Shown piece after piece: positions 17,501 through 54,437 of a stretch of 64,000 nucleotides of DNA. The position numbers and the translations under genes are program-made. The notes beneath the pieces are model-generated. The model did no database searches. It saw only the letters and a program-made list of their open reading frames with translations, and was not told the DNA's origin. Source of the stretch: Owenia fusiformis (lineage: Eukaryota > Annelida > Polychaeta > Sabellida > Oweniidae); contig CAIIXF020000007.1 in assembly GCA_903813345.2 (NCBI GenBank), positions 29,809,564 through 29,873,563 of the forward strand, given 5' to 3'. The number at the start of each line of letters is the position of its first letter. The first letter of the stretch is position 1.

Positions 17501-20500
17501 TTACATTTTCACACAGGAATACCCTGAAAACGGTAAAGTCAGATACCGTTGTCACATATGGCGGACGTAACCGTCGCTTAAACTCTTCAACCACTTGGTT
17601 CCGATTTATTTGGTTCATTATTTGACCGATGTTCATGTTTTAGGCGTGCCAGAAGAATCCTGTAGACAAAACAAGTCAAAAATATTTAACCTTATTTTTC
17701 TTTTTTCAAACTTCTTTCCGCACTTGTAGTGTAACCATATCTAGAAGGGAGGGGGTGGATGGCTTATGTTCACTATGTATTAAACACACAGTTCATGAAA
17801 ATCTAATTGAAGCGACGGATGTCACCCATTTGTGACAACGGTATCTGACTTTAACGTTGTTAGGCTATTCCGGTGTGATTTTGGGACATCGAAATATTAA
17901 CCGGTTCCTTACCTTCCCATGTCGTACATAGAAACCAAATTCTGGCTCTCTTGGGTGAAAGTGACTTGGTAGTCCGTCCATAGTACTTCGCCAGGTATAT
18001 GTGTGAGTGGAATATACTTGATCTCGTACCATTTACCCATGAACTGAAACGGATTTTGAAATATTTTTTTTATCAATGTATCTTTACTTATGAAAGCGAA
18101 ACAAAGTCATATCTAAAATGTTTCAGAAGAAATTACAAAGAAGGTATTTTTCTAAATGGTTGAGATCGGGTCACATGAATGACCTTATTTAGTCTTAGTC
18201 CAGCCCCTCATTATTTTCATTTTGTCAAAACCTGTTTTAAAAATCATGTATTTAATCGCGTAATGAAACGGCAGAGAGAGGCAAGATGGGGTACCCAGGG
18301 GTGTTTTTGCAGCACATATTTTTTATTTTTAAGTCCGTCCCTTTAAACGTTATGTTCACGGGTAGTATCTAAAGCCCCGCTATGATTGAAAAGTCGCGAG
18401 CAAGTTCCAGCTGAAATCGCGAGCATAGTCCTGTTTATTTGTATCACTTTGGAAAATGTACCAAAAAGGATGAAAATACTTATTACCGTTCTTTGATACT
18501 CCAGCAAAACTTTGAAAACAGATATATTTGACAAAAAATGACATGAACAATGATTATTTTTTACTTGCATGGAGGAAAGGGGCGTCAACATGCACGTTTG
18601 CATAATTTACTGTTCATATATTACCTTTATCGTTAAAACAAAGGCAATAAATACGATTTACATACTCCATAATAAATATCCGATCAAGATGGTCTGTATT
18701 GATAAGTAACTGGACAATGACACCTGCCATGGGGGTCGAAATACATTATTAAAGGTGTTCCATTGGCCCCGCTGAAAAAATGAGGAGGCCCCGCTGAAAA
18801 CATGAGGAGACCCCGCTGAAAACACGAGCAAATTTCACGACTACCCGCTTCGATCACGAGGAAAGCTTCATCATTATTCCATGAATATAGTGAGCTTCTT
18901 CATATGAACGTACACGAATGTGCAAATAACGTATTAATGACAATCACATAACATATCATTCTATGGCAACATCACAAATATTTCTTCTTCAACTTCAGGC
19001 AGTCTAATCCATCTGTCAGCGGCATGATCAAATTTTTATATGTAAATAGACTTTGTACATTTCGGAGTTAAATGTACATTCTACATAATTAACTATTCCA
19101 AGGATTATACTTCCGAGGACACATATATTTCATTGGTTTCTTTGTCCGACCGTTCATTCGTGCGTGCATTCGTCCGACCGTTCGTTCGTGCGTGCGTTCG
19201 TCCGACGGTCCGTTCGTTAATGCGTGCGTTCATCCGACCGACTGATCGTTTGTGCGTGCATCGCCCAATCATGCGTTCGTGGCAGCGTTCGTCCGACCGT
19301 CCATTCGTTCGTTCGTGCGTGCATCCGTTCGTGCGATTGTCCGTCCGTTTGTGTGCGCATGCGTTCGTCTGACCGTCCGTTTGTGCTTGCTTTCGTCTGA
19401 CTGCCCTTTCGTTCGTGGGTTCGTCCGTCTAGCCGTCCGTTCGTCCGTCCGTGCGTGCTTTCGTTCAACCGTCCATTCATGCATTCATTCGTGCGTGCGT
19501 TCATTCGTGCGTTCGTTTGTAACTACGTTCTTGCGTGCGTGGGTTCGATCTTTTGTAAATTGTTTTATTCTATCTTTCCTTCATGCGTTCTTTTGTTCAT
19601 CATTGTTTTTTCGGCTGTTCTTCTGTCCATCCGTGCGTTCTTTCCTCGTTCGTTTGTTCGTTTGCAGGTTTTCATCAAAATTTGTCTTTCCACTGCCATA
19701 TGAAAGAATGTAAATAATCAAGAAAGCAAGCAAGCACGTGAGGAAGTAAACAAGCAACGAAGTAAGTAATTGAGTTAGCAAGCAAGTAAAGAAGGAATGG
19801 AGGAAGTAAATAGAAGAAGTGAAGGTGGGTGTAATATAAGTAAGCAAGGAAGGAAAAAAGGAAGGAAGGAGGGAAGGAAAGAAGCAATGAAGGAAGGAAG
19901 CAAGGAAACGAGAAAGCGAGGAGGGAAGAAAGCGAGGAAGCAAGCAAGGAAGCAACTGAGGAAGAAAGGAAGGAAGGAACCGAGGGAGAAAGGAAGGAAC
20001 GATGCAAGTTAAGAATTAAGCAGGGAAGCTAGCATGTAAGGAAGCGAGGAAGAAAGGAAGCCAGGAAGCAAAGAAGGAAGGAAACGAGGAAGCAAGGAAG
20101 GAAGGAAGCAAGCAAAGACGCAAGGAAAGGAAGGAAAAAAGCAAGGAAGTAAGGAAGGAAGGAAGGAAGGAAGAAAGCGAGAATGCAAGGGAGCAAGGAG
20201 GGAAGAAAGCAAGGAAGAAATGAAGCGAGAAAAGAAGGACACGAGGAAAGAATGAAGGAAACGAGGAAACAAGGAAGGAGGAAAGGAGGAAGTGAGGAAG
20301 GAAGGAAGCAAGGAAGGAAGGAGGGAAGGAAGGAATCGATGAAGCAAGGAAAGAAGGAAGCGAGGATGCAAGGAAGGAGGAAAGATGGAAGCGAGGAAGC
20401 AAGAAAGGAATGGAGCGAGAAAGGAAGGACGCGAGGAAAAAACGAAAAAAGCGAGGAAGCAAGGAATGAGGAAAGAAGGAAGCGAGGAGGGATGGAAGCA

Positions 20501-23500
20501 AGGAAGGAGGGAAGTGGGGAAGGAAGGAAGCGAGGAAGCAAGGAAAGAAGGAGGCGAGGAAGCAAGGAAGAAAGCGAGGAAGCAAGGAAGGAAGCGAGGA
20601 AGCATGGAAGGAGGGAATGAAGCAAGAAAGGAAGGAAGAAAGGAAGGAAGTGAGGAAGAAATTTGTGAAGGAAGCGAGGAAGCAAAGAAGGAGGAAAGAA
20701 GGGAGCGAGGAAGGAAAAAAGCAAGGAAGGAAAGAGGGAAACGAGGAAAGAAGGAAGCGAGGAAGCAAGGAAGGAATGAAGCGAGGAAGGAAGGAAGCGA
20801 GAAAGCAAGGTAGGAAGTGAGGAAGGAAAGATTGCGAGGAAGGAAGGATGCAAGAAAGCAAAGAAGGAAGGAAGGAAGCAAGGAAGCAAGGAAACGAGAA
20901 AGCGAGGAGGGAAGAAAGTGAGAAAGCAAGGAAGGAAGGAACTGAGGAAGAAAGAAAGGACGGAAGCGAGGGAACAAAGAAGGAACGATGCGAGGAAGCA
21001 AGGAAGGAAGGAACTGAGGAAGCAAGGAAGGAAGCAAGGAAGGGAACGAGGAAGAAAGGAAGCCAGGAAGCAAAGAAGGAAGGAAACGATGAATCAAGGA
21101 AGAGAGGAAGCAGGCAAAGACGCAAGAAAGGAAGGAAGGAAAAAAGCAAATAAGGAAGTAAGTAAGGAAAGAAGGAAGAAGGCGAGAAAGCAAGGAATCA
21201 AGGAGAGAAGGAAGCAAGGAAGGAATGAAGCGACAAAAGAACAACGCAAGGAAAGAATGAAGGAAACGAGGAAGCAAGTAAGGAGGAAAGAAGGAAGAGA
21301 GGAAGGGAGGAAGCAAGGAAGGGAGGATGCAAGTAAGGAAGGAAGGAATCGAGGAAGCAAGGAAAGAAGAAAGCGAGGAAGCAAGGAAGGAGGAGAGAAG
21401 GAAACGAGGGAGGAAGCGAGGAAACAAGGAAGGAATGAAGCCAAAAAGGAAGGACGTGAGGAAAGAACGAAGGAATCGAGGATGCAAGGAAGGAGGAAAA
21501 AAGGAAGCGAGGAAGGAAGGAAGCAAGGAATGAAGGAGAGAAGTGAGGAAGGAAGGAAGGAAAGAAGGAAGCGAGGAAGCAAGGAAGAAAGCAAGCGAGG
21601 AAGCATGGAAGGAAGGAATGAAGCAAGGAAGGAAGGAGGAAAGGAAGTGAGGAAGAAATTTATGAAGAAAGCGAGGAAACAAAGAAGGAGGAAAGAAGGG
21701 AGCAAGGAAGGAAAAAAGCATGCAAGGACAGAGGGAAGCGAGGAAGGAAGGAAGCGAGGAAGGAAGGAAGCGAGGAACCAAGGTAGGAAGGAAGCGAGGA
21801 AGGAAAGATGCGAGGACGGAAGGAAGCGAGGAAGCAAGGTGGGAAGCAAGCGAGGGAGGTAAGTTGCGAGGAAGGAAGGAAGCAAAGAAGGAAGGAAGCA
21901 AGAAAAGAAGAGGCGAGGAAGAAAGGAAGGTATGAAGCGAGGAAGGAAAGAAGCAATGAAGGAAGGAAGCCAGGAAGGAAAGAAGCGAGGAAGCAAGGAA
22001 GGAAGGAGGGAAAGAAGCAAGGAAGGGAGGAAGCAAGGAAATGAGGAAGCAAGGAAGGAAAGATGCGAGGAAGGAAGTAAGCGAGGAAGCAAGGAAGGAA
22101 GGAAGCAAGGAAGGAACAAAGCGAGGAAGGAAGGATGCAAGGAAGCGAAGAAAGAAGGAAGTGAGGAAGCAAGGAAGGGAGGAAGCAAGGAAGGGAGGAT
22201 GCAAGAAAGGAAGGAAGCAAGGATAGAAGGAAGGAAGGATGCAAGAATGCGAGGAAGCAAGGAAGGGAGGGAGGAAGGAACCGAGGAAGGAAGCGACGAG
22301 GGAAGCAAGAAAGAAAGGAGGGAAGTGAGGAAGGGAGGAAGCTAGGAAGGGAGGAAGCGAGGGAATGAAGTGAGGAAGCAAGGAAGGAATGAAGCAAAGA
22401 AGGAAGGAAGCGAGGAAGGAAGGAAGCAAGGATGGAAGGAAGCGAGGAAGGAAGGATGTGAGGAAGCGAGGAAGGAAGCCAGGAAGCAAGGAAGGAAGGA
22501 AGCAAAGAAGCAAGGAAGGGAGGAAGCGAGCAAGCAAGTAAGCAACAGGAGATTGATATAGGAATAATATTCATAAACATTATTCTGACTAAATCATTTT
22601 AGGTTGACCTAAACGCACGCTTATTCGTGTATCTTACTGAATATCGACTTGTACTCAAAGATGGAACAGAGGGGACAGTTGCAATACAGAGAATACAGAA
22701 TATTTCCTATGGACTATGTAGTAAGATCACACGATAAAAAACGTTATACAACAATTTGAAGCGCAACATAGGATATATTGTGCTCTCGATATGCTGTATT
22801 TCTACTTGATTTCATCTCGTGCAAATACAGAATTTTTTTAGCACAATATATCCTATATTTCTCATTCAATAACTTATATTACTTCAAATTATGAAAATGA
22901 GGTTGAATGTTTAACATTTCGTCCAATCTAATACTCATCACATTTCTCACAGATGATCTTTCTTATTCTGTAAAATGGCATGGAAATATGATACTGCAGT
23001 TTTCCATAACAACGTATCATAATATGAACTATATTAAACAGTTGTGTTTGCTGTTATTGAGAATTGTATTGACAAATAATGTATTCATCAAACTGGGTAC
23101 AATAGTGAGTCAAGGTGGGTACGAAAGTGGGAGATTTTCAGGGTATAATCGGGATTCACTCCGTTTTTGAGAGACACTTGCTCCTGTTTTCAGCGGGACC
23201 TCCTCATGTTTTCAGCGGGGCCTCCTCCTGATTTCAGCGGGATCTTTGCTTAATTGCTCCTGCTAGAAGCGGGGCCTTGAGGGTAAAATTTAAATATAAA
23301 ATGTTCTGTAAAGCTTTAGGAAGTGAAACTCGGTACATCTTTATTTCATATCACTATCGTTATTTCAACCACAGGACAACATCGTTCTTCACCAATAACG
23401 TATATAAATATACAGATAAAGATTCAAAATGATACTTTCCCTCTTCAATTGACAAATAACGAACCACAGAACGACCGCTCGTGATACATTTTTTCCAGCA

Positions 23501-24324
23501 GTTGCTTTTTTAGTCTCAATACCATGTAATCATTGGGAAAAAATAAAAGAAAACGTTTTGTAAATCATACAATTCAAGAACACAAAAAAAGAACCCATGA
23601 CTTCTTTTTATTCCTCGCGATTTCAGCGGGAACTTGCTCGCGACTTTTAAATCATAGCGGGGCTTTAGATACTACCAGTGATGTTGTTCGAACTCAAAAA
23701 TGGAACTCTTTGTCACTTAATACAGGCTTCCTTTGTTGTCAGCTGTAAATATATGTTTACTCACAGGACCTGTAGTAAGTGTAAATGTATATTTACCATG
23801 TACATATATGTAAATGTCACAACAGCGTCTTAGTGAGCAATAAAAACACAAGTACGTTCGGGTAAACTGTATTGTTCGTATGCTAAATGCGTCGTTTAAA
23901 TTGCAAATTGCCTTCAAATTCTTCTAATTACAATTACTAATTAAAAAAGAGTAAGACTGCCTCAGCCAAAAAACTTATGTGAAATTCGAAAACTAATCTA
24001 TCTTTGTCCAAAGTAAGTTATTTTTCCAGCTTTTGGATATAGTTTATTATTTTGAAATCAATGTTCAACAATGGTTACATTTGCGTTCCCGTAACGTATC
24101 CAATTGTGTGATTGCATTATGCAACAAAGGACAAAAATCTTGATCACCCCCATGCAATGATACTCGATTGTTTAGAGTGTTTTTTGTTTTCAATAGATAT
24201 TTACCTTGCCAAGTTGGAAATTCTCCTGAGCAGATATATTTGCGACTTTGCAAGGAGTAACAGCTTGGTACTCTGTAAAGATCAATATGACCATCTGAAT
24301 ATATATGTAGCGTCGCCTGTCCAT
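14578..24324 (-). CDS. Apolipoprotein D-like lipocalin, probable GPI-anchored
   Basis: Lipocalins are small secreted beta-barrels that bind lipids and other hydrophobic ligands. Six exons, in order: 24324-24205, 18043-17913, 17100-17009, 15890-15657, 15137-15111, 14627-14578. Their phases close to exactly 218 codons (217 residues). The model shows a short hydrophobic signal (residues about 6-16), QENF at 33-36 as in ApoD, the lipocalin GxW motif (G43, K44, W45 in FMGKWYEIKYIP), PGKL, and the second conserved block TDYNNYAVQYGC (126-137). Spacing between PGKL and TDY equals that in human ApoD. After the barrel, ECSPETSAA is followed by a 15-residue hydrophobic end (VIYLAITLSVVSIAF), as in GPI signals; insect Lazarillo is a GPI-linked lipocalin. 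Four N-glycosylation sequons are present. Intron 1 holds a 5.3-kb transposon. The start codon and the two smallest 3' exons are the least certain parts. Confidence 0.85.
15405..15532 (-). mobile_element. Short, coreless copy of the TGTCACCACC element family
   Basis: GGCATTAACATACAAAATGC at one side and AACCACTGTGTAAGTGACAT at the other correspond to the two ends of the element at 32873-34163, in inverse orientation. Between them is only the GC-rich module ACAGACTCCGAACGCCGACC. The tandem core is absent. It lies in lipocalin intron 4. Confidence 0.65.
15912..16566 (-). mobile_element. TGTCACCACC element with about four core repeats
   Basis: It starts GGCATTAACATGACAAAATG then TCACCACCT, the inverse of the right end of the 32873-34163 element. 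The core units carry GACCTTGAGAA..TC(A/T)..TGAAGGTCAAATC and AAGTCAGATTTGAACTTCTG. It closes with the GC-rich module ACAGACGCCAACCGCC and TTGGTTGTGACAT. It lies in lipocalin intron 3. Confidence 0.75.
19133..19660. repeat. Satellite of CGTTCGT/CCGTCCGT/CGTGCGTG units
   Basis: About 500 bp are built from 4-bp-phased words (GTTCGTGCGTGC, GTCCGACCGTCC, GTTCGTCCGTCC) with frequent CpG. The apparent reading frames rich in Arg-Ser-Phe-Val or Thr-Asn-Glu-Arg are translations of this satellite and not genes. The array decays into TTCGTTTGTTC words near 19640. Confidence 0.93.
19730..22545. repeat. 2.8-kb purine-only satellite (GGAAGGAAGCAAGGAAGCGA)n
   Basis: The plus strand is almost entirely A and G, with isolated C or T, in imperfect GGAA, AGGA and GCAAGGAA words. 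The minus strand, nearly all pyrimidine, cannot form TAA, TAG or TGA, which explains an 842-codon open frame at 22537-20009. That frame translates to Phe-Leu-Pro-Ser-Ala repeats only and should not be annotated as a gene. Long polypurine tracts of this kind can form intramolecular triplexes and stall polymerases. Confidence 0.95.
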
Positions 24325-24407
24325 TTTTACTTGCTTTGCGATGTCAACTGTGTACCCGGCCACACCTTCCTACTTTGCGATTTTTAGTGACGCTAACACT
24401 AGCCTAT
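24325..24407 (-). promoter_or_regulatory. Remaining proximal upstream region of the lipocalin gene
   Basis: Only about 83 bp separate the inferred lipocalin ATG from the target duplication of a LINE inserted at 24421-26000. Any 5' UTR or proximal promoter is therefore either this short segment or has been pushed 1.6 kb away. No TATA box is evident in it. Confidence 0.35.
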
Positions 24408-24420
24408 AGTACTTGTCAGT

Positions 24421-26000
24421 GACCTAGAAAATTCATCATTTTCTAGGTCAAGTTAAGTCGGTCAAATCAACTCTGGAGTCTCCCAAGGCTCAATATGGGG
24501 ACCGATTTTCTTTTTGTTATATCTAAATGACGTAACGGACGACCTAAACTCTAAATGTTTTATCTATGCGGATGACACGTCACTTTTTTGTCCGGTTGAC
24601 CCAATAAATCACCAAACAGATAGCCAAGTTCTTCAAGAAGACTTAATTCATATCCAAATGTGGTCCCAGAAATGGGGACTAACTTTCGCACCACAAAAAA
24701 GTCACGAGTTGATCTTTAAAACAAATAGACCAATTGAGAGAACATATCCTAAGTTTGTTTTCAACGACACTCCAATAGATCAAATTAAACATCATAAGCA
24801 CCTCGGTCTAATTCTTGATGAAAAGTTAACCTTCAAAACCCATATTGAATATCTAGAAGGTAAAATTCAAAAATTATTAAATCCACTTATGGCACTTAAG
24901 CATAGATTAAATTCCAAACACCTGGAAAAAATTTACTCTTCCTTTATCCTGTCACATCTGGACTATTGTGATATCATTTATGACGCTGCTCCAGCTACCA
25001 GCCTAGCCCAGTTAGACAAGCTACATTATAGGGCAGCTGTTATTTGTTCTGGTGTTATGCAAGGAGCAAGCACAGAAAAAACCCTTGAAATATTAAATTG
25101 GGATAATCTTCAAAATAGACGGGATGAACATAAATTGCGCGTTATGTTCAAGATTCATAACAATTCGGCACCATCTTACGTTAAACGGATTTTCGAACGA
25201 TATAAATCACCTCAGACGCGAGTTCTTCGAACAACCAACGACTACAAATTACCAGCCTCAATTAGTAAAAAAATGGAAACGGGAACAGTTTGCTCAATGA
25301 TAACCTTGTGGAACCGTCTTCCTAGAGACCACAAGGAAACGAACAGCTTCTCACTTTTTAAAAAACAACTAAACGATCACCTCACCAAAAACACCGAACC
25401 TACAATTTCAACCTCCTACATACAGAATCTTGATAGAAAAGAAGAAATTGTACTAAATAAGATAAGAGTAAATCGATATTTCAAATCCGATCTTTTTGAC
25501 CATAATTTCTCTTTCATTAACGATCCATATTGTGACTGTGGAGCTCGAGAGACAGCACAGCATAAACTCTTGTCCTGCCCTCTGAGAGAAACAAATGCGC
25601 TAGCGGTGGTTAAACATGAACTAAACTTAGATGTTACTAAATACAAAACATTAAAAAATAAGACAAATTTCCTACTTTTTGGCGACAAAGATCTGACAAA
25701 TGAAAACAATTCCAAAATCTTTAAGGCAGTTTTGAATTTCATTAAGTAATCGATAACAGCAATTCAAATTCAGGGCACCAACGGGGGTACAGACAGGTAG
25801 AAAAACAGATAGTATCTAAATTATATATTTTTCTTACTCTAATAATGACTTTGACTAAATGTTATATTATATTGTATTTTAAATTCACTTAAAGCGGCAG
25901 TAGAAATGCCCTTTCAGGGCGATTACGCCGTGAATAACAATGAAAATGTATCTATGATTTTAAGAAATAAAGAGTATTTATTATAAAAAAAAGAAAAAAA
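24421..26000 (+). mobile_element. 5'-truncated Jockey/CR1-type LINE with 13-bp target duplication
   Basis: The element is flanked by perfect copies of AGTACTTGTCAGT at 24408-24420 and 26001-26013, directly next to its A-rich 3' tail (TTATAAAAAAAAGAAAAAAA). This is the hallmark of target-primed reverse transcription. The 3' UTR includes GCCCTTTCAGGGCGATTACG and AATAAAG. The 5' end begins in a 30-bp hairpin (GACCTAGAAAAT...ATTTTCTAGGTC), and the coding sequence is entered midway through the reverse transcriptase. The element is on the opposite strand to the lipocalin. Confidence 0.93.
24457..25749 (+). pseudogene. LINE reverse transcriptase, C-terminal two thirds
   Basis: The frame is open for 430 codons, with no stop between the truncation point and the natural end. 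It begins at the RT motif SGVSQGSIWGPIFFLLYLND, followed by the catalytic FIYADDTSLF (YADD), the thumb, and a terminal Cys-His element (CDCGARETAQHKLLSCP). The fingers, first catalytic Asp and endonuclease are missing, so no mobile protein can be made. There is no natural start codon near the break. The intact frame and the perfect target duplication suggest a recent insertion. Confidence 0.93.
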
Positions 26001-26013
26001 AGTACTTGTCAGT

Positions 26014-26600
26014 ATAGCGAAGGTAAACGGCAACAGTCGGTAACGACCTTAGTATTGGTACCCTCATTCATGCTTTTTTGAGGTGAATACCAAGGTTTAT
26101 TTTTTAAGTTATCTTATTTTAATGCATTAAATTTTGGTTATAAGCTGATTACAAGCAAGAAAAGTGATAAGGAAATATGATACAATTGTGATATTACATC
26201 GAGGTATCGGGTATATCAGAGTAGACAATGTAGTGTTAAATCATCTATGATCATAGATTAGTTATATACCATAGGGAAGTTTAATATCTGATTTAAAATT
26301 TCAGAAATAATGTCAGCAAATGGTGACCAGGGGTTCGATTTTTTATGTATCCACAAATCCCCCCCTTCATCGGTGTACCTCACATAAAAGCATTTTTTGT
26401 ATTTGTACATACAATTTACACCACTCCAAAAGTTTGGCAACAATTTGATTTTCTATGTTGAAATAGTTTTTGGTGAATCTTTTACTGAAAAGATATTGAA
26501 ATCTGGTAGCAAAATCATACATTTAAATTTAACATGCACTTGTTTAATTGTTCAATGGAATCCAAATCAAGCGGTTAGCATACATTGAGCCAACTTTTGT
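26014..26600. other. Gene-free stretch
   Basis: No protein-like frame was seen. CACTCCAAAAGTTTGGCAAC near 26422 resembles a Tc1-type terminal sequence that recurs near 27785 and, inverted, near 53645. Confidence 0.4.
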
Positions 26601-26601
26601 T

Positions 26602-27871: not shown

Positions 27872-27876
27872 ATAAT

Positions 27877-28701
27877 CACAGGCTGGTATCGAAATATTTG
27901 TCCGCTGTGACGGAGCATGCTATTTTCATAAAAACACTAAGAATACTTCACGATTTATTTTTTAACTCACATGTTTCGTTATACCATACAAAATTACTTA
28001 CTCCATGCAATGGATATATCATTTGCGGGTAACTTTCATTTCTGTTTGAAGTCCAATTACGCTGGGAAGAAAAGCTATTGAAAATGGCGCCGGAGTATCA
28101 TACTTCAAAATGTACCATTTCTTGTTTAACTTTCTAACGGCACGATATAGTGACACGATAATATTTACACATGGTTTCAGCATAACTATGAAGGTATAAA
28201 TGAGATGTTGATGTATTTGGTCTTTTTAATTCTTTTATAGAAAACAATATTTAATTTTTTTGTCCGCTGTGACGGAGCAGTTGCAAATGTGAACTGTGAA
28301 AATGCTCCGTCACAGCGGACAAAAAATATTAATATTATTTTTTATAAAAAAATTAAAAAGACCCAATGCATTAATATTTCATTAATACATTCAGAGTTAT
28401 GGTGAAAACATATGTTAATATTATCGTGTCACTATATCATGCCATTAAAAAATTAAAAAAGAAATGGTACATTTTAGAGTTTGATACTCTGGCGCCGTTT
28501 TCAATAGATTTTACTCCTAGCGTTATTAGACTTCAAACAGAAGTGAAGGTTACACGCAAATGATATATCCATTGCATGGAGTAAGTAATTATCTTTGATA
28601 TAACGAAACATATGAGTTAAAAAGCATGAAGCATTCTTAGTGTTTTTATGAAAAATAGCATGCTCCGTCACAGCGGACAAATCTTTCGATACCAGCCTGT
28701 G
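27877..28701. mobile_element. 825-bp near-perfect hairpin element, 5-bp target duplication
   Basis: The ends start CACAGGCTGGTATCGAAA and are flanked by ATAAT on both sides (27872-27876, 28702-28706). Two arms of about 390 bp are inverse copies meeting at 28275-28305. A 21-bp motif, TTTGTCCGCTGTGACGGAGC plus A, occurs four times: at the outer and inner end of each arm (near 27898, 28259, 28304 and 28659). No open frame of note. A transcript across it would fold into a long double-stranded RNA. Confidence 0.9.
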
Positions 28702-28706
28702 ATAAT

Positions 28707-30430: not shown

Positions 30431-30436
30431 AAAACA

Positions 30437-30578: not shown

Positions 30579-30644
30579 TATATACATACTGTATACAAAA
30601 ATTTATGTCAGATACCCAGGTCAAAATAATAGCATACATATTCA

Positions 30645-37338: not shown

Positions 37339-40112
37339 GTGGTCGGTTGGAAAATGTTGTTTTTACACATTTCCTTTGATCATTCCTCGTCTGTCGTCTA
37401 AGAGTGTCGAATATTTTCGAGAATATGTTTCTATAAACTACACAATTTAGGATGGGTGAAGAGTATTACATATTCATGTATTTATTGTAATTTAAAAGAA
37501 TCAGAAATGTGCGTTATCAACTCCACTGTACGTTGTCCCTGTAATTGAAATTCATGAGATATGCGTAATATTAAACAATGAAATGATTTCATTTCAAAAT
37601 GCATTAAGGTTTTTAATTATGAGTAACAAGTAATTTTTAACAAACATGTTCAAGTTTCCTTTTTTGTACAGATGATTTTAAAGATAAGGTAAATGTGATT
37701 TTTAACCTCTTTTGAGTGCTTTTTCATTTGTATTGTATTGTTGTTGTAGTGGTTGATTTGGTGGCTAATTTGTGGCCATTGGACGTTAGCTTCCACGCTC
37801 TTTGATTATTTGGCATCTATACCTTACGTTTTATTAAGTTACACTGATAGATAGATCTATACTAGCTTATCGAATATGACTTTTAAAAATCCCGTTTATC
37901 ATATATCTGGAAAGTGCTCAATAGTTTCAATCAAATTGAAGTTATACGGTAATTGTTCAGTTTCAATTTTGAATGCTGCCTCCCTGCCTGTTACACGCCT
38001 TACCATCGACAAGGTACAGTCACGTGACAGTGACAAAATATACCGTAGTACACTTTTGATGTACTATGTCACTATTAACTGATTTTAAGCAAAGACTATG
38101 ATGTAGGTTTGATGCAGGTTTTCAAAAATAAATTTGAGGAATACATAAAGCATTTCATGTTTGATTTTGCGTGTATTCGATTTCAAATACATTTATTTTT
38201 CTAATTACGTTAAAAGATCTTCGAGCAGTGCTCGATTTTTTTCGTTGTAAGTCTACCCATACAATTGTTCGGTTGGAAAATGTTGTTTTTTACACATTTC
38301 CTTTGATAATTTTCTCCACTGACGTCTCAGAGTGTCGAATATTTTTATGAGAATGTGTTTCTCTAAACTACACAGTTTAAGACGGGTGAAGATTTAATAA
38401 ATATTCGTGCATTTGGTATAATTTAAAAAATCAGAAATGTACGTTGTCAACTCACAGTGTATGTTGTTCCTGTAATTGAAATTCAACGAACATGCTCCTG
38501 TATCCCTACAGATAAACAGGTAAAAGTGATTTTTCGTTGAATGCTATTTTATTTTATGAAAGTGTTAATATGGTGATTAATATGTGACCATGGCGTGTTA
38601 TTTTCTGACCTCTTTGACCACTCGGCGTCGGTACGTTACGTTATGTTTAGTTGCATGGAGAGATCTATACTAGCTATTCCAAGATGACTTTCAAAATTTA
38701 TGCTACAGGGTGTCCCGAAAGTATGGGCCCCCTAGGCAGACATATAACAATGTCTCCATAGTATGTGTCATATATAGTATCATTTTAAAGCTCATCCAAA
38801 GTTACATTAATTTGCCGAGTATCATGGTTCAACTCACAAATGGAAAAAAGTTACAGGAATTTCAAAAGTTAGTGTTTGGCCAAAATTAAAGTCAGTGTTA
38901 CACCAAAACAATAGTCGGTGTGTCTCCTTAGCCGCCATGTGCATCAATATTTCACATTCAGGTCAGGGCTGTTTCCAGGATACCGAAATCTTTTTGGCAA
39001 AACGCTAATTTTTAAAATGCCTGTTACTTTTTACCATTTGAACCATCATATGTAACTTTGGATAAGCTTAAAAAATGATATTTGAAACATACTACTATGT
39101 ATATGTCTGCCTAGGGGGGGGGGGGGGGCATACTTTGGGACACTCTGTATATCTGGAAAGTGCAGAAGTTCAAAAGCCAGGTTATGGAACACAAAAAAAG
39201 AATTAGTAACAATCATATCAATGACAATTTTATGGATTAACGGACAAAATATTAGAGTAAATATATCTGATATGCCTATCATTATTTATTACTTTATTAT
39301 AAAATATGTTCCTTCTATTACACGTACATTATAGCATTTCATTCACTGTAAAATTAACTGTGAATTGAGATCTGTAAGGCCAATGTGACAACATACATTC
39401 GAGTTGACAACATACATTATCTATTTTTCGTAGTAGCATCCAAAGTAAAAAGCGGTTTTGCATTAACTCTGGATGTATATTTGTATACTTATCTTAAGTT
39501 GTGTTAGTCGTAGTTTGGCTGTTATTTGCATAGCAAAACAAAAATTAGAGAGAATTTTGCGAAATTCAGTCAGGATTTAGAGATCCCTGACGTACTGGGT
39601 AGATCTATAACAAGATATTGAAGTTGCTGAGGATCATTTGAAGTATAGATATGCACATTTGCAAATTAATTACAAATCGAATGCAACAACTACCTGATGA
39701 TGAACTGACACAATATTGATCAAATCAATGCTAGTTCTTGCCTCGCTTCCTCATTCTAGAAAATGGCGATCTACAGATCTAAAATGGCGCAAATGACATA
39801 GTACATCAAAAGTGTACTACGGTATATTTTGTCACTGTCACGTGACTGTACCTTGTCGATGGTCAGGCGTGTGTTAGTGTTATGAAAAATACGTTGCCTG
39901 CATTAGGGTTAGTTGTGAATTGAGTAAGTTCAATAATGGGACGACGTGCATTCGAGTTGACAACGTACACTTATGAAATTTTAAATTATTGCCAAAACGT
40001 TAATACATGATATTAAATCTTCAACAGGCCTTAATTGTGTACTATATTCGACAGTCTTAGACCACAGAAAAGGAAATGTGTAAAAAACATTTTCGAACCG
40101 ACCAATCAAACC
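37339..40112. mobile_element. 2.8-kb inverted-repeat cluster between two genes
   Basis: Outer arms are 37339-38076 and 39793-40112. CGGTTGGAAAATGTTGTTTT at 37344 pairs with its inverse at about 40085. A near-identical 80-bp stretch at 37991-38072 (with ACAGTCACGTGACAGTGAC) is inverted at 39793-39874. A further direct copy of the left arm begins at 38270, offset by 926 bp, and is split by a MITE at 38706-39147. No protein is encoded. The right edge lies 300 bp upstream of the metallophosphoesterase start. Confidence 0.7.
38706..39147. mobile_element. Mariner-type MITE with TA target duplication
   Basis: The ends are CAGGGTGTCCCGAAAGTATG and the inverse of GCATACTTTGGGACACTCTG, flanked by TA at 38704-38705 and 39148-39149. 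Inside is CCCCCTAGGCAGACATAT and its inverse. The unbroken relative at about 37898-37915 (ATATATCTGGAAAGTGC) shows the site as it was before insertion. Confidence 0.88.
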
Positions 40113-41827: not shown

Positions 41828-41951
41828 AAGCAGAAAAAGCAGAGTTTAAAGACAGAAATATGTGCTCATTTTGGTTCTCAATCATGTGCGAATTTTTTTT
41901 ACCCATAACAATGCAGCATCACATAGCCCATTGGAATATTTAAAAAACAAG

Positions 41952-41957
41952 AATAAA
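41952..41957 (+). terminator. Polyadenylation signal for the metallophosphoesterase
   Basis: AATAAA in GAATAAAACA, 125 bases past the stop codon. Confidence 0.5.
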
Positions 41958-42769: not shown

Positions 42770-42774
42770 AAGAT

Positions 42775-43254
42775 CACTGGTGATCCACTCGATTACGCTG
42801 GAACCGTTTCGGTAACAAAATGTCCTTATTTCACACGTTGTAGGCAGAATTCCCACGACATTTTTATCACAAACAGTATCATCACTATGATTAAGAAAAT
42901 GTACACATTTGCGAGCAAATAGTTCAGAAGACAACGGAATCGTCGATTTAATCCCTTACTTAAGTTACCGAAACAGTATTTCGAAAAACAGTTAAGATCT
43001 GCACTTTTAACCCTTACCGTTTATGTAATTTAAGTGAGGAATTAAATCGACAATTCTTTTGTCTTCTGAGCTATTTTTTCGCAAACCTTTTATAAAACAT
43101 ATGATACTGATACACGTTTGTGAGAAAAAATGTCGTGGGGATTCTGCCTACAACGAGCGAAAAAATAAGCAAAAATCGTACCCTCGACGTTCCGACATTT
43201 TGTTACCGAAACGAACCGTTTCGGTAACCAGCGTAATCAAGCGGATCACCAGTG
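42775..43254. mobile_element. 480-bp palindromic element, CACTGGTGATCC family, copy A
   Basis: The left end is CACTGGTGATCCACTCGATT and the right end is its inverse (GCGGATCACCAGTG). AAGAT flanks it on both sides (42770-42774, 43255-43259). Inside, ACCGTTTCGGTAACAAAATG, GGCAGAATTCCCACGACA and others are mirrored by inverse copies, so nearly the whole element is one hairpin. Short frames here are by-products of the palindrome. A second copy is at 53908-54437. Confidence 0.92.
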
Positions 43255-43259
43255 AAGAT

Positions 43260-45151: not shown

Positions 45152-48100
45152 TTATAAAATGGGAGACATTGATGTTTTGTTTTCATTGAGGTCATTAAAG
45201 TCCAATGATGGGTTGAATCTTGTCCTTGATATAGGCCCTTCGCAAACCTCCTGATGCATCTTATAAGCAGCATCTAAATAGAATTTTGAGTCACACTTCA
45301 AACAGGTAAATGCTTCATTATGTACTTGAAGATGGTAATAAAGCTTGGTCTGACAACGAAAATCCTTGGGACACAAGGGGCATAAATGACGAGGTACAAT
45401 TTCATGGACTTCAGCCATGTGTCTAGCCAGGGAACCACTAAAGCTTGACTTATATGTGCAATCAGTATCATAACAGGGGAGCTTGGTGCCAGTGTGGATA
45501 CGTAAGTGATTCATCAGAGCAATCTCAGATTCTGTCTCAAAGTCACATTCATGACAAGCATATGGTTTACTTCCTGAATGGGCCTGACGCTTGTGCTTCA
45601 AATAACTATGGTTGTTTTTTAAATGAACATCGCATAACTCACATTTTATTCCTCCTTCCTCCGTTTCATGGTCAGAAGTTGATAAATTATGAGTTGGAAG
45701 CTTGACCTTTAATTTTACTGGCCTTCCTATCTTTCTCTTGGTGTGTTTATTCTCATGTTTTTGAAACAATCCTTGGAAGTTGGATTTAAAGTCACATTGT
45801 GTGCATTTGAACTGATAAATCTGGTGGTTATCTCCTATGTGGAGAGATAGTTGTTTCTTGCTGGTGAATGTATCTGTGCAATGGTCACAAGGGAAAGAAG
45901 CTGATGTTGTTTTCACCTTACATGCAGTCAGATGACACTCATAACCTATTTGATCACTGGCAATGTGGGAACAGAAACAGCACTGGAGAATCCCATGTTT
46001 GATCATATGGTTGATAAACCTGTATCTCCTGTTGGTGCCATAGTCGCATAAGGGACATGAGAACGTTGCTACCTTTTGGTGGACCTCCTTAATATGCCTA
46101 CTTAAACTATAAGCACAATTACTTTTGTAGCCACACTCTTTACAAACAACCTTATCCAGATTGTTATCTGTTGCTTTTGTTGTTGAGGTAGTATTCTGCT
46201 TCTTGCTTTCTTCATTAGCTGGCAGCTCACCTTTGTTCGCCTCTTCTTTGATGTCTTTAACTTTTGTAAAGTTCTTGAGACTAAGTGAGGTTGATGGCTT
46301 ATTAAGGTTGTCCTTCTTGCATTTCAGGATGTCATATTGTTCATTTGGATGGTGACGGAAGACATGCCATCTAACCTTCTCACTTCTGCTGTATTCGAGT
46401 CCACAGACAAAGCATACAAATGGTTTGTAGCCTGTATGGGCATTCATATGTCGATGTAAATGTGATTTATTATCAGTTGTGTATTTGCATTCCTTACAGC
46501 TGTACGCCAGTTTGATACCGGAAACACTACCAGACATCTGCTTCACAGGTCTATCTCCCCAGTATTTTCCTGTGTTCTTCACAACCTCTAAGCCCACTTT
46601 AGCTATGATACCAACTGTTGAGCCTTTAATGCCTGCACTGAGGTCATCATTAATGTCACAATCATCATCACTTATGTAAGCTGAGGCTTCATCATCAGCA
46701 ACTGTTGCTATGATTCGCATGGGTTTATTTGATTTCCTAGATTTACGACTCCTCTTGGGCTGCTGGTAAAGATCTTCGTCAGTCTGAAATGTCATATTAA
46801 CTGAATTTTTATATTTTATTAATTATTTTCTCCCATTAAAAATATAAACAGTCAGTATATTCTGAAATGTGAATTTAATACATGACACATACATGTACTT
46901 TGTTAAATGAATAAATATTGGTAATTTTACATATTATCTTATATTTCTTATATTTCACAAATATTGATGACTACTGTAGATACACTTAAGTTGGCTCCTG
47001 TTTCAATTTGACAGATTGGCGGATTCAGAAAATCTGCCAAATTAAAAATCCGTCAAATTTCAGTTTTGAATTTTTGTCCAATGCACTTCAGAAATTAAAC
47101 TCCAGGGGCCCCTTTTCCAGTCAACATGTCATCAATTCTACATTATTCCAAAGGAAATACAGAACATATCTGAGTAAACACCTGTCCAAATGACATAAAC
47201 ATCTACAAAAATTAAACTTCAGTCCTGAATCAACCGAATTAAATAGCCACCAATATTTGAAATTGAGGAAATCCATCAAAATTAAGTAGCGTCAAAATAA
47301 GTGTATCTACAGTATTACTTTACCTTGCATTACAGAACAGGGATACAAATCTACAAGTTGTATATGAAAGTAGTTAGGCAGTCAAGAATGCATACATTAT
47401 TTCAATGTTCTCACCACACTGGACAATGTCTTATCAAGTCATTAAGACAATTGTATCCATTGACAGAGTCACCTAATGTAACCAGTCTCAATTGACAAAA
47501 ATATATCATTATTGGATAATTTAAACTGAATGAAAAAACAAAAACTCTGTCCTTACAATGATAAGGATGGTACCTTCCTTTGGAAAGTTCTAACATAGGG
47601 TAAAGACATACTGACATAGCAGATAAAGATTAGTGTTAAAGATTGAGGAACTAGCGCATGGTGATCATGCCACTAAATGTTTCAATACATGAAACATGAG
47701 ATCCAATTTTTAAAGTGTCTTAAGTTTTTGTGGTGAGAACCCTGTATTCTGTACACAAACAAACCTACCTCTATTTCTGGTTCTTGTTTCAAAAGAGCCT
47801 TGTTATCAACTTCAGAACATACCACCTTGCCCTCCATCTCCTTGGTATTTACTTCTTCACCACTATTTCTCACAACATCATTTGATAATCGCATCTCAGT
47901 TTCCTCAATATCTGAATTGTCATGTTTTGCAGCTGGGGGAATGCAGTTTTCATCAGGTGTTATATTAGCACAGTCATTCTCAACATCCAAAGTAGGTTTC
48001 GTATCATTACTTGCCCTTTCAGAAATCTCTGATATTTCGGTAAAACCTGAGGCATCCATTTTGACATCATTACATGAGGGGTCTGTCCCCTGTGATCCTT

Positions 48101-48299
48101 TCATCTCAATGTTTGTCTTCATTTGATCATTTGAGGTAGATGGGTTTTCCTCATGAATTGTCTTATTAATAGCATCTGCACATTCCTTTGTATCATGCAA
48201 ACTGTCATCAACATTTTCCATACTGTCCACGGCAGGTCTCTCATCAGCATTGTGTATTATTTTTGCAATGCTAGCCTCTTTTGGATTCAGATGTTCCAT
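45152..48299 (-). CDS. C2H2 zinc-finger protein with about 12 fingers
   Basis: Exons 48299-47769 and 46783-45152 join in phase to 720 residues. The first 177 residues (exon 1) are acidic and low in complexity, with DSMENVDDSLHD and EETEMR, and no known domain. A basic segment, KRSRKSRKSNKP, near residue 186 could be a nuclear signal. About 12 C2H2 fingers follow, starting YSCKECKYTTDNKSHLHRHM, with few TGEKP linkers (TGYKPF, SGSKPY). One finger (FCSHIASDQIGYECHLTAC) ends in Cys instead of His, and the last (FTCLKCDSKFYLDAAYKMHQ) ends in HxxxC. It is probably a DNA-binding regulator of transcription; no orthologue is recognised. An in-frame stop lies 30 bases before the ATG. The intron holds a MITE at 46974-47312. 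Confidence 0.88.
46974..47312. mobile_element. TA-flanked MITE, CTGTAGATACACTTA ends, copy 1
   Basis: The ends CTGTAGATACACTTA and the inverse TAAGTGTATCTACAG are flanked by TA. The interior has AATTTGAC/GTCAAATT motifs. It lies in the intron of the zinc-finger gene. A second insertion, in opposite orientation, is at 55015-55357 with about the same length. Confidence 0.88.
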
Positions 48300-48933
48300 T
48301 GTTGCAAGCAGTGCAAGTCCAGTTACTTACACTAGATTTGCCATCAATCATCTGTGATTCATTCAATGTCAAGTCTTTACCTAAAAATAAAAATAACAAA
48401 TACAATTACACTGCCTATATTTCGATCTAGTTGAAAGCCCATGATTTGATTAAACAAGAATGCAAAATCAAACATTCAAAGGCCGTGTCTACACATCATG
48501 GAATATCGAAGGTATCCAAAGGAGTTCGGATACATGCAGGCTGCACTTGGAAGTTATTTAATATCTTGTACAATTTCTCATTTTATATTTTCAGGGGTTT
48601 CATTAGCAGCAGGGAAGAGTTGATTTTCAACAGTTGGTTTCACAAAATCACCTGTTGTTTTTATGGACTTTTCAACTTTTCCATGTTAAATTTATGATTT
48701 CGATTAATTTTGCCTGTTGTTTTCATTTATTTAGCCTGTTGTGGCAAATTCTACTGAAACCCCAGAGTATGTAGAAATAAGAACAGATTATGGCATTCCA
48801 AAGTTAGCAGTTGAATTGAAGTTAATTTCCTTGTCAATTGTAGGAGACATGAACAAATAGTACGCCTTTTTCCCAGTGTAAAGATTAAAGGAGGACGGAA
48901 AGTATCACAACAGATTTCGGACAGTCATATGTT
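48300..48933. other. Upstream region of the zinc-finger gene
   Basis: On the minus strand, an acceptor-like TTTTTATTTTTAG near 48381 precedes GTAAAGACTTGACATTGAAT and a consensus donor GTAAGTAAC near 48333. This could be a short untranslated exon, or part of a longer 5' UTR that runs into the ATG at 48299. No other gene signal was found. Confidence 0.3.
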
Positions 48934-49573
48934 AGATTTTGACTATTTTCTGAGGATTTAAACAGGTGTATATGTTAGGCCAATGCATTATTAATATCCA
49001 GGAAAAGCACTCATAGAGATGATAAACAATTTCGACTTTGAGACAGGGGAGATGCAAACAACCCACCCACATGTTTTTTTCTGAAATGTTGTCCTGATTT
49101 TCAACCCCTTCCACCCCTGCTTTTTCAATTTTTGTTGCATCAATATGTTGCGTTTTAAGACACAGTTAACTGCTTTAAAGGAATAAGTAATTCCTCTTCG
49201 ATAAAGTGGAAAACAATATTTCCCATGTTATTTTCCATAGGGAAAACTCATGCGATCCATTGCTTTCAGCTCATTTTGGTCATCCATAATGTATATCTTT
49301 AAAACCCCTGAAGGAATTACTTATTCCTTTAATGGGGTTAATTATGTGTCATAACACAAAATATTGATTCATCAAAAATTGAAAAAGCAGGAGTGGAAGG
49401 GGTTGAAAATCAGGACAACATTTCAGAAAAAACATGTGGGTGGGTTGTTTGCATCTTTCCTGTCAAAGTTGAAATTATTTTATGATCTCAGTCTATGAGT
49501 GCTTTTCTTGTAAGTAATGCATTGACCTAATATATGCACCTGTTTAAATCCTCAGAAAATAACCAAAATCCAA
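48934..49573. mobile_element. 640-bp foldback element
   Basis: Left TTCTGAGGATTTAAACAGGT at 48949 pairs with the inverse ACCTGTTTAAATCCTCAGAA near 49537. Further inside, CAACCCACCCACATGTTTTT and TTCAACCCCTTCCACCCCTG have inverse partners at about 49420-49450 and 49390. Arms are about 240-270 bp. No target duplication or frame. Confidence 0.75.
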
Positions 49574-49689
49574 CAAATTGAGGACTTTGAAGATGGTAGC
49601 CCCTGTGAAGTAACATAAACTTGGAAATATTTGATGATATTCTCTGTAAAATAAGAAGTGTGATCATACACACAATTCATATGAAAAAC

Positions 49690-50030
49690 ATCATGTAGGA
49701 TTCCTGGGTATTTTAGCATTCTTTTCGTGTAGTTGAATCCACAATTATCTGGGTATATAGGCAGAATGGGAACATTTTTCTTTTTCATCGAGAGAGATTC
49801 CATCACTTTTCAAGATTGGATTTAAAAAAGGATTCCACGTTTGACTGGCCCGGAAGTGGCCCAGAAGTACCAATAAATGGAGGAATTTGATGGTTGAAAT
49901 AAGTTAAATATTACACGCAAATATTGCGATCAAAAAACAAAAAATTCTTCATTCTGCCGATAAACCCTGACAATTGTGGATTCAACTACACAAAAAGAAT
50001 GCTAAAATACCAAGGAATCTATTGAAGTAG
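49690..50030. mobile_element. 340-bp foldback element next to the preceding one
   Basis: TTTTAGCATTCTTTTCGTGT and AGTTGAATCCACAATTATCT at 49711-49750 are mirrored by AATTGTGGATTCAACTACAC and AAAAAGAATGCTAAAA at about 49972-50008. The centre (49800-49930) is unique. No coding capacity. Confidence 0.65.
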
Positions 50031-50946
50031 GGATCTTAAGTGTAAGAAGCGTAGAAAATTCTCCCATGTTGTAATCGTAGAGGCAAAAGATTGAGACGTT
50101 CTCAGGACTATAGTCCTGGCACGGGATAAATTGAACCCCGACTAGCAATTTTACAATAGTTCACGGTGTTCCACATGAAATTACTCTAGCCAACAATTGG
50201 CTAGAGACTCGAGTAACGATTTGATACCAGTGGGAGAGCACATTCCAAGAAGCCTAGTTTTTTGAAATATTTCAGTTGAAGTTTTGCACCTTTGATCTTC
50301 TATAATAGCTTGATACTGCCTTTCCCTCGGCTAAGCCTATTGGAAACATTACATGTCCAATTTAGAAAGGACATTGACACAAACCATGTGATAAAAGGTG
50401 GCTATAAGGTTGTATGTACTTATATGCCCTTTTGTGCACGGTCAGGATCCAGAGACTCAATGACTTTGAACAAAGGTAAACGTAGTTTTAAAAGAAACAC
50501 TTCAAACAGGAAATGCCATTTCGTGAATTTTTTGTTTGAAATTTCGAATTCAAAAATAATACTATCATTGCAACACATGCCGATCCTATACAATAAAACA
50601 TTTCAATCAATTAGATGTCAATGCAATTTATATAATAACGAGGAGAAATAGTCATATACATTACCCTTTGTGGACACGAACCACGATAATCGATAAAAAT
50701 TATAGATTTTCCAAATTTTGGTTTACTTCCGGTTGCTGACGGATTACGCTACAGGAGAGTCCAAAGGATGGGTGGGTGTCTATTATGAGTTCTAAGGTAG
50801 AATACTTGTTTTTAATCAAAGATGTTTCATGTATCCTGGAATGCTCAAAATTCTTTATCCAATTATTTTCTTGTTATAGCCTGTGGGGTACAATCATGGG
50901 CTTTCGAGTCAAGAAATTTAATTATTAAGCTACACGTACAAGCTTA
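50031..50946. other. Gene-free stretch
   Basis: A 119-codon frame at 50292-50651 shows no motif and no splice context. No gene is supported. Confidence 0.4.
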
Positions 50947-51681
50947 TAGGGTGACCCAAAAAATAGAACCCTCCAAAAATGAAATAATTTCTTTAATACA
51001 TACGTAGTGCACTGGCGGATTAGGGGGGGGGGGCTGGGGGCCCGCCCTCCCCCCTAAGGCCTTAAGGCCCCCAAAAAGTTGGCCTTTTTGGTCATTACTG
51101 GGCCTTTTAAGGCCTTATTTTTTAAATTCAGGCCAAATTTTGAAGAAAATGGGCCTCAAAATTTGGGCCCATTTTTGTGTTTTAGGGGCCCAAAATTTTT
51201 TTTCCGTTTTTTTCTCTGACCTGAAATTTGCCCCCCCCCCTTGTTGGTTCCCAGATCCGCCCCTGTAGTCAGCGTTATTTTTCATGTACATAAACTACAA
51301 TCTATGGATGACAATGTGAGACCAAACTTGTACAGGTGGTCTAAACTGACCATTCAGCTGTCTTATATACATCTGTAATGATTTCTTGAGAATTCATCCA
51401 ATGAAATTCCGTAGAGTGTTTGAGGCATTTCAATCATCTGATCTTCTGCATATCTCATAAAATCTCAAGATATGATTTTGCCTTTGTTGATTTTCCAAAA
51501 ATTGGAAACATGCTAAGATCATCCATGAATGATATCACAAATAATCAATTTTGTGTAACAAACTTGATATCATATTATCATCCATATGCATAAGCTTATG
51601 CATATAAAAATTGGGTTGATAGGGTAGGTATTTAATAAATTATTACACTTTCAGAGGATTCTGTTTTTCGGGGTCACCCTG
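50947..51681. mobile_element. Mariner-like element remnant with nested MITE
   Basis: The ends are TAGGGTGACCCAAAAAATAG and the inverse of CGGGGTCACCCTG, flanked by TA. The inside has no transposase frame. A CACTGGCGGATCC-family MITE (51010-51265) is nested near the left end. Confidence 0.75.
51010..51265. mobile_element. CACTGGCGGATCC-family MITE with G/C homopolymer stems
   Basis: CACTGGCGGATTAGGGGGGG at the left and, inverted, CAGGGGCGGATCTGGGAACC at the right. GGCCCCCAAAAAGTTGGCC and similar GGCC words fill the interior. The flanks are TAGTG and TAGTC, a four-of-five match. Confidence 0.75.
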
Positions 51682-51689
51682 TATATGTA

Positions 51690-52239
51690 CACTGCATAGA
51701 ACTATGTAATTTAAAAAGTTAAACGTCCAATTGAAGTAGTATCTGGGCCTTGTTTCTTATCTGACATATCTTGTGACCACCCCGGGGGCCTGTCAACCGA
51801 TAGCGATGTGAAGGAAATTATGGTCCCCCAGGGATTTTGGTCCCCCTTCTAAACGCCCCTTACTGGCCCTGATTGTGTATAAGATAATGAAGGAAAGAGG
51901 TCACCATATAAATCAATGGAGAATAGGACCATAATTTGATAGGACCTCATACCCTTTTACTAAATAAATAGTGTGATATTCTCTTGTGATACTCTATTGT
52001 TTTTCATTCTATTGACAAGCTAAGAATGGAGTGGTATCGATATGGAAAACTTTTTGAACACACGTTTCTCTTAACCCAGTCATAAAAAATCTAAAAATTT
52101 AACACATCTTCAATTTAATGGTCATCTTTGGAATGGTAACAATATAATTTGAAAAATATATAATATATACTTTCATCTATATTGTTTTAAAAAACACATC
52201 AAACACTTGTTCTTGGTATCATGTTTCCAGAGTGAAATA
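51690..52239. other. Gene-free stretch
   Basis: No protein-like frame or repeat structure was recognised. Confidence 0.4.
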
Positions 52240-52760
52240 TGAAACATCTTTCCGAACCTCATTGGAACAAAACGACATAAACACAACATGTTTAGGTCTC
52301 TCAATATTGTAATTATAAATTGTACATAGGGAAATTTTGGTTGATTTTAAAAAAGTATCTGAGTTAATGAAATAAAAGGTTTATCTTGATTTTTATCTAT
52401 TTTGGGGGATTTTTTTTAATTTTTTGAATATTTTTAAAAAATCAACCCAAATTCCTTTGTATAACTATAATATTGAGAGATCTAAAACATGTCGTATATG
52501 CTATTGTGTTCCAACAAGGTTCGGGAAGACATTTTTACCCCACCACATAGTGAGGGGCCATATTGTTGGCCTAGGCGCGTCCGTCTGTCCGTCCGTCCGT
52601 CCGGCAGTTTTCTCCAAAAACCGCTACAGATATCATCTTCAAATTTTCAGGGATAACTTATGAGTGCATACTACATACAGATGTGGATGAAAAAATTTAA
52701 CTTGATACCTACTTCCTCTCAGCCATTTTGAAGTCAAATGCCACTTAAAATCTAAACTAT
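52240..52760. mobile_element. Foldback segment joined to a (CCGT)n element end
   Basis: 52245-52345 (with CATGTTTAGGTCTCTCAATA) is mirrored at about 52440-52535 (TATTGAGAGATCTAAAACAT). It runs directly into GAGGGGCCATATTGTTGGCC, GCGCGTCCGTCTGTCCGTCC and TCTCAGCCATTTTGAAGTC. That CCGT-plus-CCATTTTGAA combination recalls the right end of the element at 12647-13285. Confidence 0.55.
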
Positions 52761-53902
52761 TAACAGTAACAAAATAACTTTTAATATGTTATACATATAT
52801 TTGGATGAACATCAACTATACAGTTATTGTACATTATAAATGTATGGTAAAATATATACATTCACTAGTTACGTAGGTCGTTCTAAAGGTTTTACCTGTT
52901 TTGTTGCTAAATACAATCAAGACAATTTATCTGTTTGTCATGCAACTGGGGGCAGTTGTGTTAGTAACGTCAAATAAAAGTGTTATGAATACTTGAATCT
53001 TGGAGGCTTTTATATCACTTTCCTTATTCATCAGTTCATTGAGATCATAGTTTTTCATGAGATATGAGATTGGTCCATATGATCGCGACTTCGTCAATTC
53101 TAGATCTATGTATGATACGGTAAAAGTATAATAATTTATGGTATTACAAAGTTGGATTTACACCTTTTTAGGGATGTAGAAATGATCCATAGGCGAGGCA
53201 AAACGTGAGTCAAGTATAACAGAGGCTAAAGGGCGATAGAAATAATTTTTAGATAAAGAGGGCAGGTCAATCAATCAATCTGTGTTTATATTTTTCTTTG
53301 AGAGAAATGTTATATGACCTGCTGCCATCTTTATATCGTCCTAAAGCCTATAATAAATAGAATACTACCACTACTATGATTAATTTTAAGTTTCAAACTA
53401 TGAAATTACTGAAATTTTATAAAATCATTTTTAAGAGGCAAGTGTCTCTTCTGCCAAATCGAACTACACTTTCTTCCATAATTTTGGCAAACGAAAATTC
53501 TCAAATATTGGATAGCATAGCAAACCCTGTCAAAGTTGGAATCTTAATTTTGTTCTTGACTTACAATAGTTCGGATAATCATAGCTTTTGTGATCTTTTA
53601 AATCGCCAAAATAGACTTTGATCCAAAACAGTACTTAGTTCCGATTGCCAAACGTATAGAGGGGAGTGTATTCACCCATAACGTTTTTGCCTTCATTTGT
53701 TTCCAGCCATTTGTTTACACATCCTCATTCAATCAAGCATCCTTTTGTAGTAATTATAGTAATGCCTCGACCTATGTGAAAAGCTCACGTCATGGAAATG
53801 GATAGTATTTCTTAGATTTAGCAAGCAGGTGGAACATCTTGAATAACCCTCGTATATTTACAATTTCTTGCTCATTCGGTTACTTTAATGAGTCTTCAGT
53901 CC
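52761..53902. other. Gene-free stretch
   Basis: An 81-codon frame at 53376-53621 lacks motifs. GCCAAACGTATAGAGGGGAG near 53647 resembles an inverted Tc1-type end. No gene is supported. Confidence 0.4.
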
Positions 53903-53907
53903 TATTC

Positions 53908-54437
53908 CACTGGTGATCCACTCGATTACGCTGGTTACCAAAACGAACCGTTTTGGTAACAAAATGTCGGAACGTCGAAGGCACGATTTTTCTTTTTTCC
54001 TTATTTCACGCGTTGTAGGCAGAATCCCCACGACGTTTTTTCTCACAACGTGCATCAGTATCATATGTTTTAGAAAATGTACATGTTTTCGAAAAAATAG
54101 CTCAGAGGACAACAGAATCGTCGATTTACTTCCTCACTTAAGTTACATAAACGGTTTTTCGAAAAACAGTTAAGATCTGCACTTTTAACCCAAACCGTTT
54201 ATGTAACTTAAGTGAGGAAGTAAATCGACGATTCTGAACCATTTGAATTCGCAAATATGTACACTTTCTTAAACATATGATACTGATACACGTTTGTGTT
54301 AAGAAATGTCGTGGGAATTCTGCCTACAACGTGTAAAATAATGGTAACGAGAAAAATCGTACCTTCCGGATGTTCCGACATTTTGTTACCAAAACGAACC
54401 GTTTTGGTAACCAGCGTAATCGAGTGGATCACCAGTG
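53908..54437. mobile_element. 530-bp palindromic element, CACTGGTGATCC family, copy B
   Basis: It begins CACTGGTGATCCACTCGATT and ends with the exact inverse of that 20-mer. TATTC flanks it on both sides (53903-53907, 54438-54442). The interior mirrors copy A at 42775-43254, including GGTTACCAAAACGAACCG and AAAACAGTTAAGATCTGCAC in the centre. It is a full-length hairpin with no protein. Confidence 0.93.

Follow-up and report, generated by a model that had tools for sequence, protein, structure and literature searches.

Inverted-repeat transposons with CAC ends and 5-bp target duplications in Owenia fusiformis, and a giant YqaJ-domain protein as their candidate transposase

Six insertions within a 64,000-nucleotide stretch of the Owenia fusiformis genome (hereafter the window, whose own coordinates are used below) are non-autonomous inverted-repeat DNA transposons that have ends beginning with CAC and that generate a 5-bp duplication on integration. 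This identity rests on many genomic copies for three of the families represented (families 1-3), and on a single copy each for the insertions at 17510-17877 and 37994-39871. The genome also holds, in another CAC family (fam4), a complete element whose multi-exon gene codes for a giant protein containing a YqaJ nuclease. We tentatively propose, at somewhat less than even probability, that relatives of this protein mobilize families 1-3 and the other window insertions in trans.

CAC insertions in the window

The initial annotation reported four insertions bounded by CACNGG inverted ends, and their coordinates, ends and exact 5-bp direct duplications were found to be correct in all four cases (Table 1). 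The elements at 42775-43254 and 53908-54437 belong to one family, and the four insertions therefore represent three families. Chance pairing of such ends was assessed within the window itself. Pairs of CACNGG and CCNGTG lying 200-6000 bp apart occur 114 times, five of them with matching 5-bp flanks; the four pairs whose ends additionally agree in at least 13 of 16 bases are exactly the four reported insertions. The reversed window contains 64 such pairs, none with matching flanks and none a full match, and 20 shuffled versions (7-base blocks) together gave 1,444 pairs, of which two had matching flanks and none was a full match.

The CACNGG rule that these insertions had been said to share stands in its CAC and 5-bp parts, but NGG is not general. 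Two further insertions, at 17510-17877 and 37994-39871, also qualify and lack NGG; the shared signature is therefore CAC with a 5-bp duplication, not CACNGG. As read from its one window copy, the former begins CACACA/CACACC and has inverted ends of about 70 bp at 84% identity; the latter, likewise read from one window copy, begins CACGCC and has inverted ends of 78 bp at 98.7% identity. Elsewhere in the window, 24457-25749 holds a 430-residue frame that appears by eye to be reverse-transcriptase-like.

Table 1. CAC insertions and associated features in the window
Feature	Position	Strand	Length	Ends or repeat units	5-bp duplication
Family 1 element	18357..23680	.	5,324 bp	CACGGG/CACTGG	ATGTT (18352-18356 + 23681-23685)
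Family 1, first tandem array	19144..19427	.		GTCC/GTTC-type units	
Family 1, second tandem array	19838..22545	.		AAGGAAGC-type units	
Family 2 fold-back element	27877..28701	.	825 bp	CACAGGCTGGTATCGAAA	ATAAT
Family 3 fold-back element	42775..43254	.	480 bp	CACTGGTGATCC	AAGAT
Family 3 fold-back element	53908..54437	.	530 bp	CACTGGTGATCC	TATTC
Additional CAC element	17510..17877	.	368 bp	CACACAGGAATA/CACACCGGAATA	ATTTT
Additional CAC element	37994..39871	.	1,878 bp	CACGCCTKACCATCGACAAG	TGTTA

Families 1-3 across the genome

Searches of the whole genome returned 287 ends of family 1 (at most 2 mismatches), 1,451 of family 2 (at most 3) and 2,254 of family 3 (at most 1), and in each case the reversed pattern returned none. 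From the matches listed, 100 per family, we fetched 50 copies that stood in top or first places and had both ends (10 of family 1, 20 of family 2 and 20 of family 3). The duplication length, for which genomic copies had been suggested as the check, held: an exact 5-bp duplication flanks 40 of the 50 (7/10, 17/20 and 16/20 for families 1, 2 and 3, respectively). Among the other ten, three show a one-base difference, two agree at 6 bp and five have no 5-bp duplication. One of these last five, a copy of family 2 (L026, G000:C1:17455392-17456245), is flanked by 12-bp sequences that are exact inverted rather than direct repeats. The CACTGG right end of the window copy of family 1 is private to that copy, as all ten other fetched copies have CACGGG at both ends. 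When window and genome copies were pooled (n = 44), the duplications were found to contain 16% GC, against 35% for the window, and T is the last base in 32 of them. Furthermore, 19 of the 20 fetched copies of family 3 have a neighbor at 98% identity or above, the remaining copy having one at 86%, and by this sequence similarity the family looks recently active.

Longer copies of all three families were inspected by eye for coding capacity. No transposase was recognized in the printed frames (at most the eight longest each) of the longer family 1 and family 2 copies L061-L069, nor among the printed open frames of the longer family 3 copies L102 and L103. Low-complexity frames resembling the arrays at 19144-22545 are also present in two of the longer family 1 copies, L065 and L067. 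Together, these data support the earlier proposal of non-autonomous elements under one end rule: they are inverted-repeat DNA transposons, with a 5-bp duplication in most of the copies read.

A complete CAC element encoding a giant YqaJ protein

The family fam4 was first met through L079, a hAT locus nested inside one of its members. Its ends (CACTGTGG; CACTGTGGCTAGTCGATC) do not follow CACNGG; the duplication is exactly 5 bp in five of the six copies read and 6 bp in the sixth (L105). Searched against the genome, a frame of about 230 residues carried by fam4 yielded 727 candidates at first look and 151 matches with a score. No Pfam family matched this frame above the cut-off, and its dN/dS-type ratios across four copies were mixed, from 0.25 to 2.47, coding constraint not being evident.

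The complete partner of fam4 is a 9,241-bp element (L108:211-9451) on contig 6, with ends that are alike at 20 of 20 bases and with an exact duplication, TTTAA. About 2.8 kb downstream of a fam4 frame lie exons of a giant protein that combines a YqaJ nuclease domain with a candidate DDE region; several of the exon borders resemble splice sites by eye. Apart from this giant gene, no long coding region was recognized in the element. Both of the fam4 copies that we compared with it match over 1,051-1,063 bp on the left, a stretch that contains the first coding exon, and over 869 bp on the right, at 95-96% identity. The middle 1.5-1.9 kb of both copies has no match to L108. The notion that fam4 is L108 minus its middle was consequently rejected, the fam4 middle being other sequence. 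One complete L108 was seen, and it is the one complete element found to combine CAC ends, a 5-bp duplication and the giant protein.

The fam4 frame is reminiscent of an uncharacterized giant protein of animals, segments of which served as queries. One such segment matches the Pfam RNase H domain PF21787 at 3.3e-6; the others, the YqaJ part included, gave no Pfam match above the cut-off. The segments of this protein that have no counterpart in fam4 identified 15 places in the genome, including open frames of 1,438 (L109), 1,467 and 1,221 residues, and the L108 exon series is collinear with these three frames. An L108 exon matches L109 at 5.9e-38, and L109 matches L110 at 1.6e-125. YqaJ scores above the Pfam cut-off in L108, L109 and L110, and gave no Pfam match in L111. 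Candidate catalytic residues are a D (E in L111) that precedes an R, an invariant DGQ, and the E of the motif [ST]xxxExxF, which is present in all six loci with the C-terminal part read. Pfam and PDB profiles of the genome's own giant proteins gave no support for an RNase-H reading, the PDB matches being at chance level only. YqaJ also matches open frames of 2,362-2,378 residues at G000:C3:16789085, G000:C331:13974 and G000:C486:31968.

Sequence shared between the ends was also examined. The tetranucleotide TCGA occupies end positions 13-16 of family 2, of 37994-39871 and of fam4, and positions 15-18 of family 3; for shifts of 0, 1 and 2, the p values of this sharing are 0.002, 0.018 and 0.0009, respectively, with a 4-mer length that was chosen after looking. 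TCGA is absent near the ends of family 1 and of 17510-17877. The motif may weakly tie the families of three of the window insertions, together with 37994-39871, to fam4. Alignments of the whole ends past the CAC, among families 1-3 and fam4, were mostly not significant (p 0.019-0.48), and the fit of several local hAT ends to family 1 or 3 is as good or better (p 0.013 and 0.028, for example).

These observations provide the basis for a model of mobility in trans. The giant protein, with its zinc-finger-like N-terminus, YqaJ-type nuclease and candidate RNase-H-like DDE core, is predicted to bind the CAC ends and excise the element, and would insert it, with a 5-bp stagger, into AT-rich target DNA; the processing of ends or gaps may fall to the YqaJ nuclease. 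We infer that the L108 protein is a transposase and that its relatives move families 1-3, a reading in which the catalytic activity and the binding of ends, as well as the extension from fam4 to the other families, are all predictions. The initial annotation had named an autonomous relative with a transposase of another superfamily as evidence against its own reading; a complete CAC/5-bp element that encodes another kind of protein was found for the sister family fam4 (L108) only, and none among the copies of families 1-3 that were read. Among the matches listed, of which few long copies were read, the giant protein was not found between family 1, 2 or 3 ends. Similarly, L109-L111 have no detected ends of their own, no family 1-3 ends were found around these loci or beside three more giant-protein loci, and, of 50 YqaJ or giant-protein places, not one lies within 15 kb of the family ends typed from among the matches listed.

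Alternative sources of transposase

A hAT transposase is a doubtful but arguable alternative, in which families 1-3 would be passengers of a hAT5-like enzyme, that is, of a hAT that makes 5-bp duplications. A hAT5 group with such duplications, as in families 1-3, is described in PMC12730594. In the genome, 138 hAT dimerization-domain matches were listed, and the local hAT ends that align with family 1 or 3 (p 0.013-0.028) are in keeping with this possibility. Furthermore, matching 5-bp flanks, CTTTT, surround a DUF4371-type hAT (L077) whose ends are CAGSSGCGTAACCAGG, and 5-bp hATs may therefore exist here. Against this, no hAT transposase has so far been found between family ends: in 32 of the 138 matches, 12 of them read as loci of about 7 kb and 20 in windows of 1.75 kb confined to the 3′ side, none had family 1-3 ends as its own. 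L077 itself begins with CAG, its duplication is T-rich and it is a single copy, and 8-bp duplications accompany TAG-type ends in five of the 12 long loci. A search with DUF4371 gave four matches, and one with DUF659 found nothing, its control being silent as well.

Two loci were considered as hAT genes of CAC elements and rejected. At L078 two separate family 3 copies flank the hAT frame, with no matching duplication; one of the two is cut short beside a LINE-like piece (by eye). At L079 the hAT piece (TAGAGG...CCTCTA) is nested inside fam4, with a duplication of its own, CTCCAGAT (by eye). Beside another hAT fragment, L075:3293-4489 is a 399-residue open frame that is forkhead-like by eye.

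It is also conceivable, although we regard it as unlikely, that the CAC/5-bp families are moved by a different transposase altogether and that the giant YqaJ gene is cargo captured by a fam4 element. The complete L108 is single, the giant-protein loci L109-L111 have no detected ends, the fam4 middle is unlike L108, and the catalytic fold of the giant protein has no Pfam or PDB confirmation, all of which speak for this reading. Against it, the first exon of the giant gene is kept across the many fam4 copies found, and L108 has no other recognized long coding region.

The giant protein was further compared with two known systems. Its order of D, D, a long insertion and E is similar to that of the P element/THAP9 group, for which the P residues D230, D303 and E531 are given in PMC8230255. 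The PF21787 match at 3.3e-6 came from a segment of a related protein only, and the genome's own proteins have no P-type Pfam or PDB match. P elements duplicate 8 bp, according to PMC7776569, whereas families 1-3, fam4 and L108 mostly show 5 bp. The second system, ISL2EU of the PHIS superfamily, consists of DNA transposons that, like L108, encode a YqaJ exonuclease; as described in PMC4482050, these have 2-bp AT duplications and a separate DDE/THAP frame, whereas L108 has 5 bp and carries YqaJ within one giant protein, the lack of a separate frame at L108 being judged from open-frame lists only. In the open-access literature searched, YqaJ led to ISL2EU/Harbinger and unrelated works only, and no element joining CAC ends and a 5-bp duplication to a giant YqaJ/DDE protein was recognizable, although one may still have been published.

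Transib or RAG parentage of the insertions is unlikely, and the reading first proposed, in which a Transib or RAG-like transposase carries the families as its passengers, now appears highly improbable, as the end consensus and target preference of those elements are not seen here and no RAG1 or Transib frame was found in searches that had no positive control. The Pfam model of RAG1 gave no match in the genome at E values up to 1. A 54-residue Transib motif retrieved the solved Helicoverpa Transib (6pqn) at 6.5e-18 and gave no candidate in the genome. With no genome serving as positive control in either search, these results do not establish the absence of RAG1 and Transib. There is a likeness to these elements: Transib makes a 5-bp duplication (PMC3276498) and starts with CAC (PMC7204232), as do families 1-3, and the RAGL/ProtoRAG transposons share the CAC start, the 5-bp duplication and the existence of non-autonomous derivatives, copies of this kind having been published for protostome RAG-like transposons (PMC7204232). 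However, the protostome RAG-like end consensus given in PMC7204232, CACTWMCAAACKTYKBB, has AAA at positions 8-10, which by eye none of the six families compared here has. Likewise, the Transib elements hopper and transib2 target CCANTGG (PMC3276498), whereas the duplications here are AT-rich.

Based on these results we speculate that the elements belong to a superfamily of cut-and-paste DNA transposons of animals that is as yet undescribed; it would have CAC ends, 5-bp duplications and a giant transposase combining zinc finger, YqaJ and DDE parts, and would be the source of thousands of short inverted-repeat elements in this genome, the six window insertions among them; this wider proposal is possible, but we hold it with considerable reserve. 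Elements with CAC ends and 5-bp duplications are readily assigned to RAG or Transib, as in the initial annotation. L108 carries this very fingerprint and its protein gave no RAG1 or hAT match; ends and duplication length alone can therefore mislead. If the proposal is true, the match to Transib and RAG in ends and duplication length would reflect either convergence or a very deep kinship, and the giant YqaJ protein offers a concrete candidate for an undescribed transposase.
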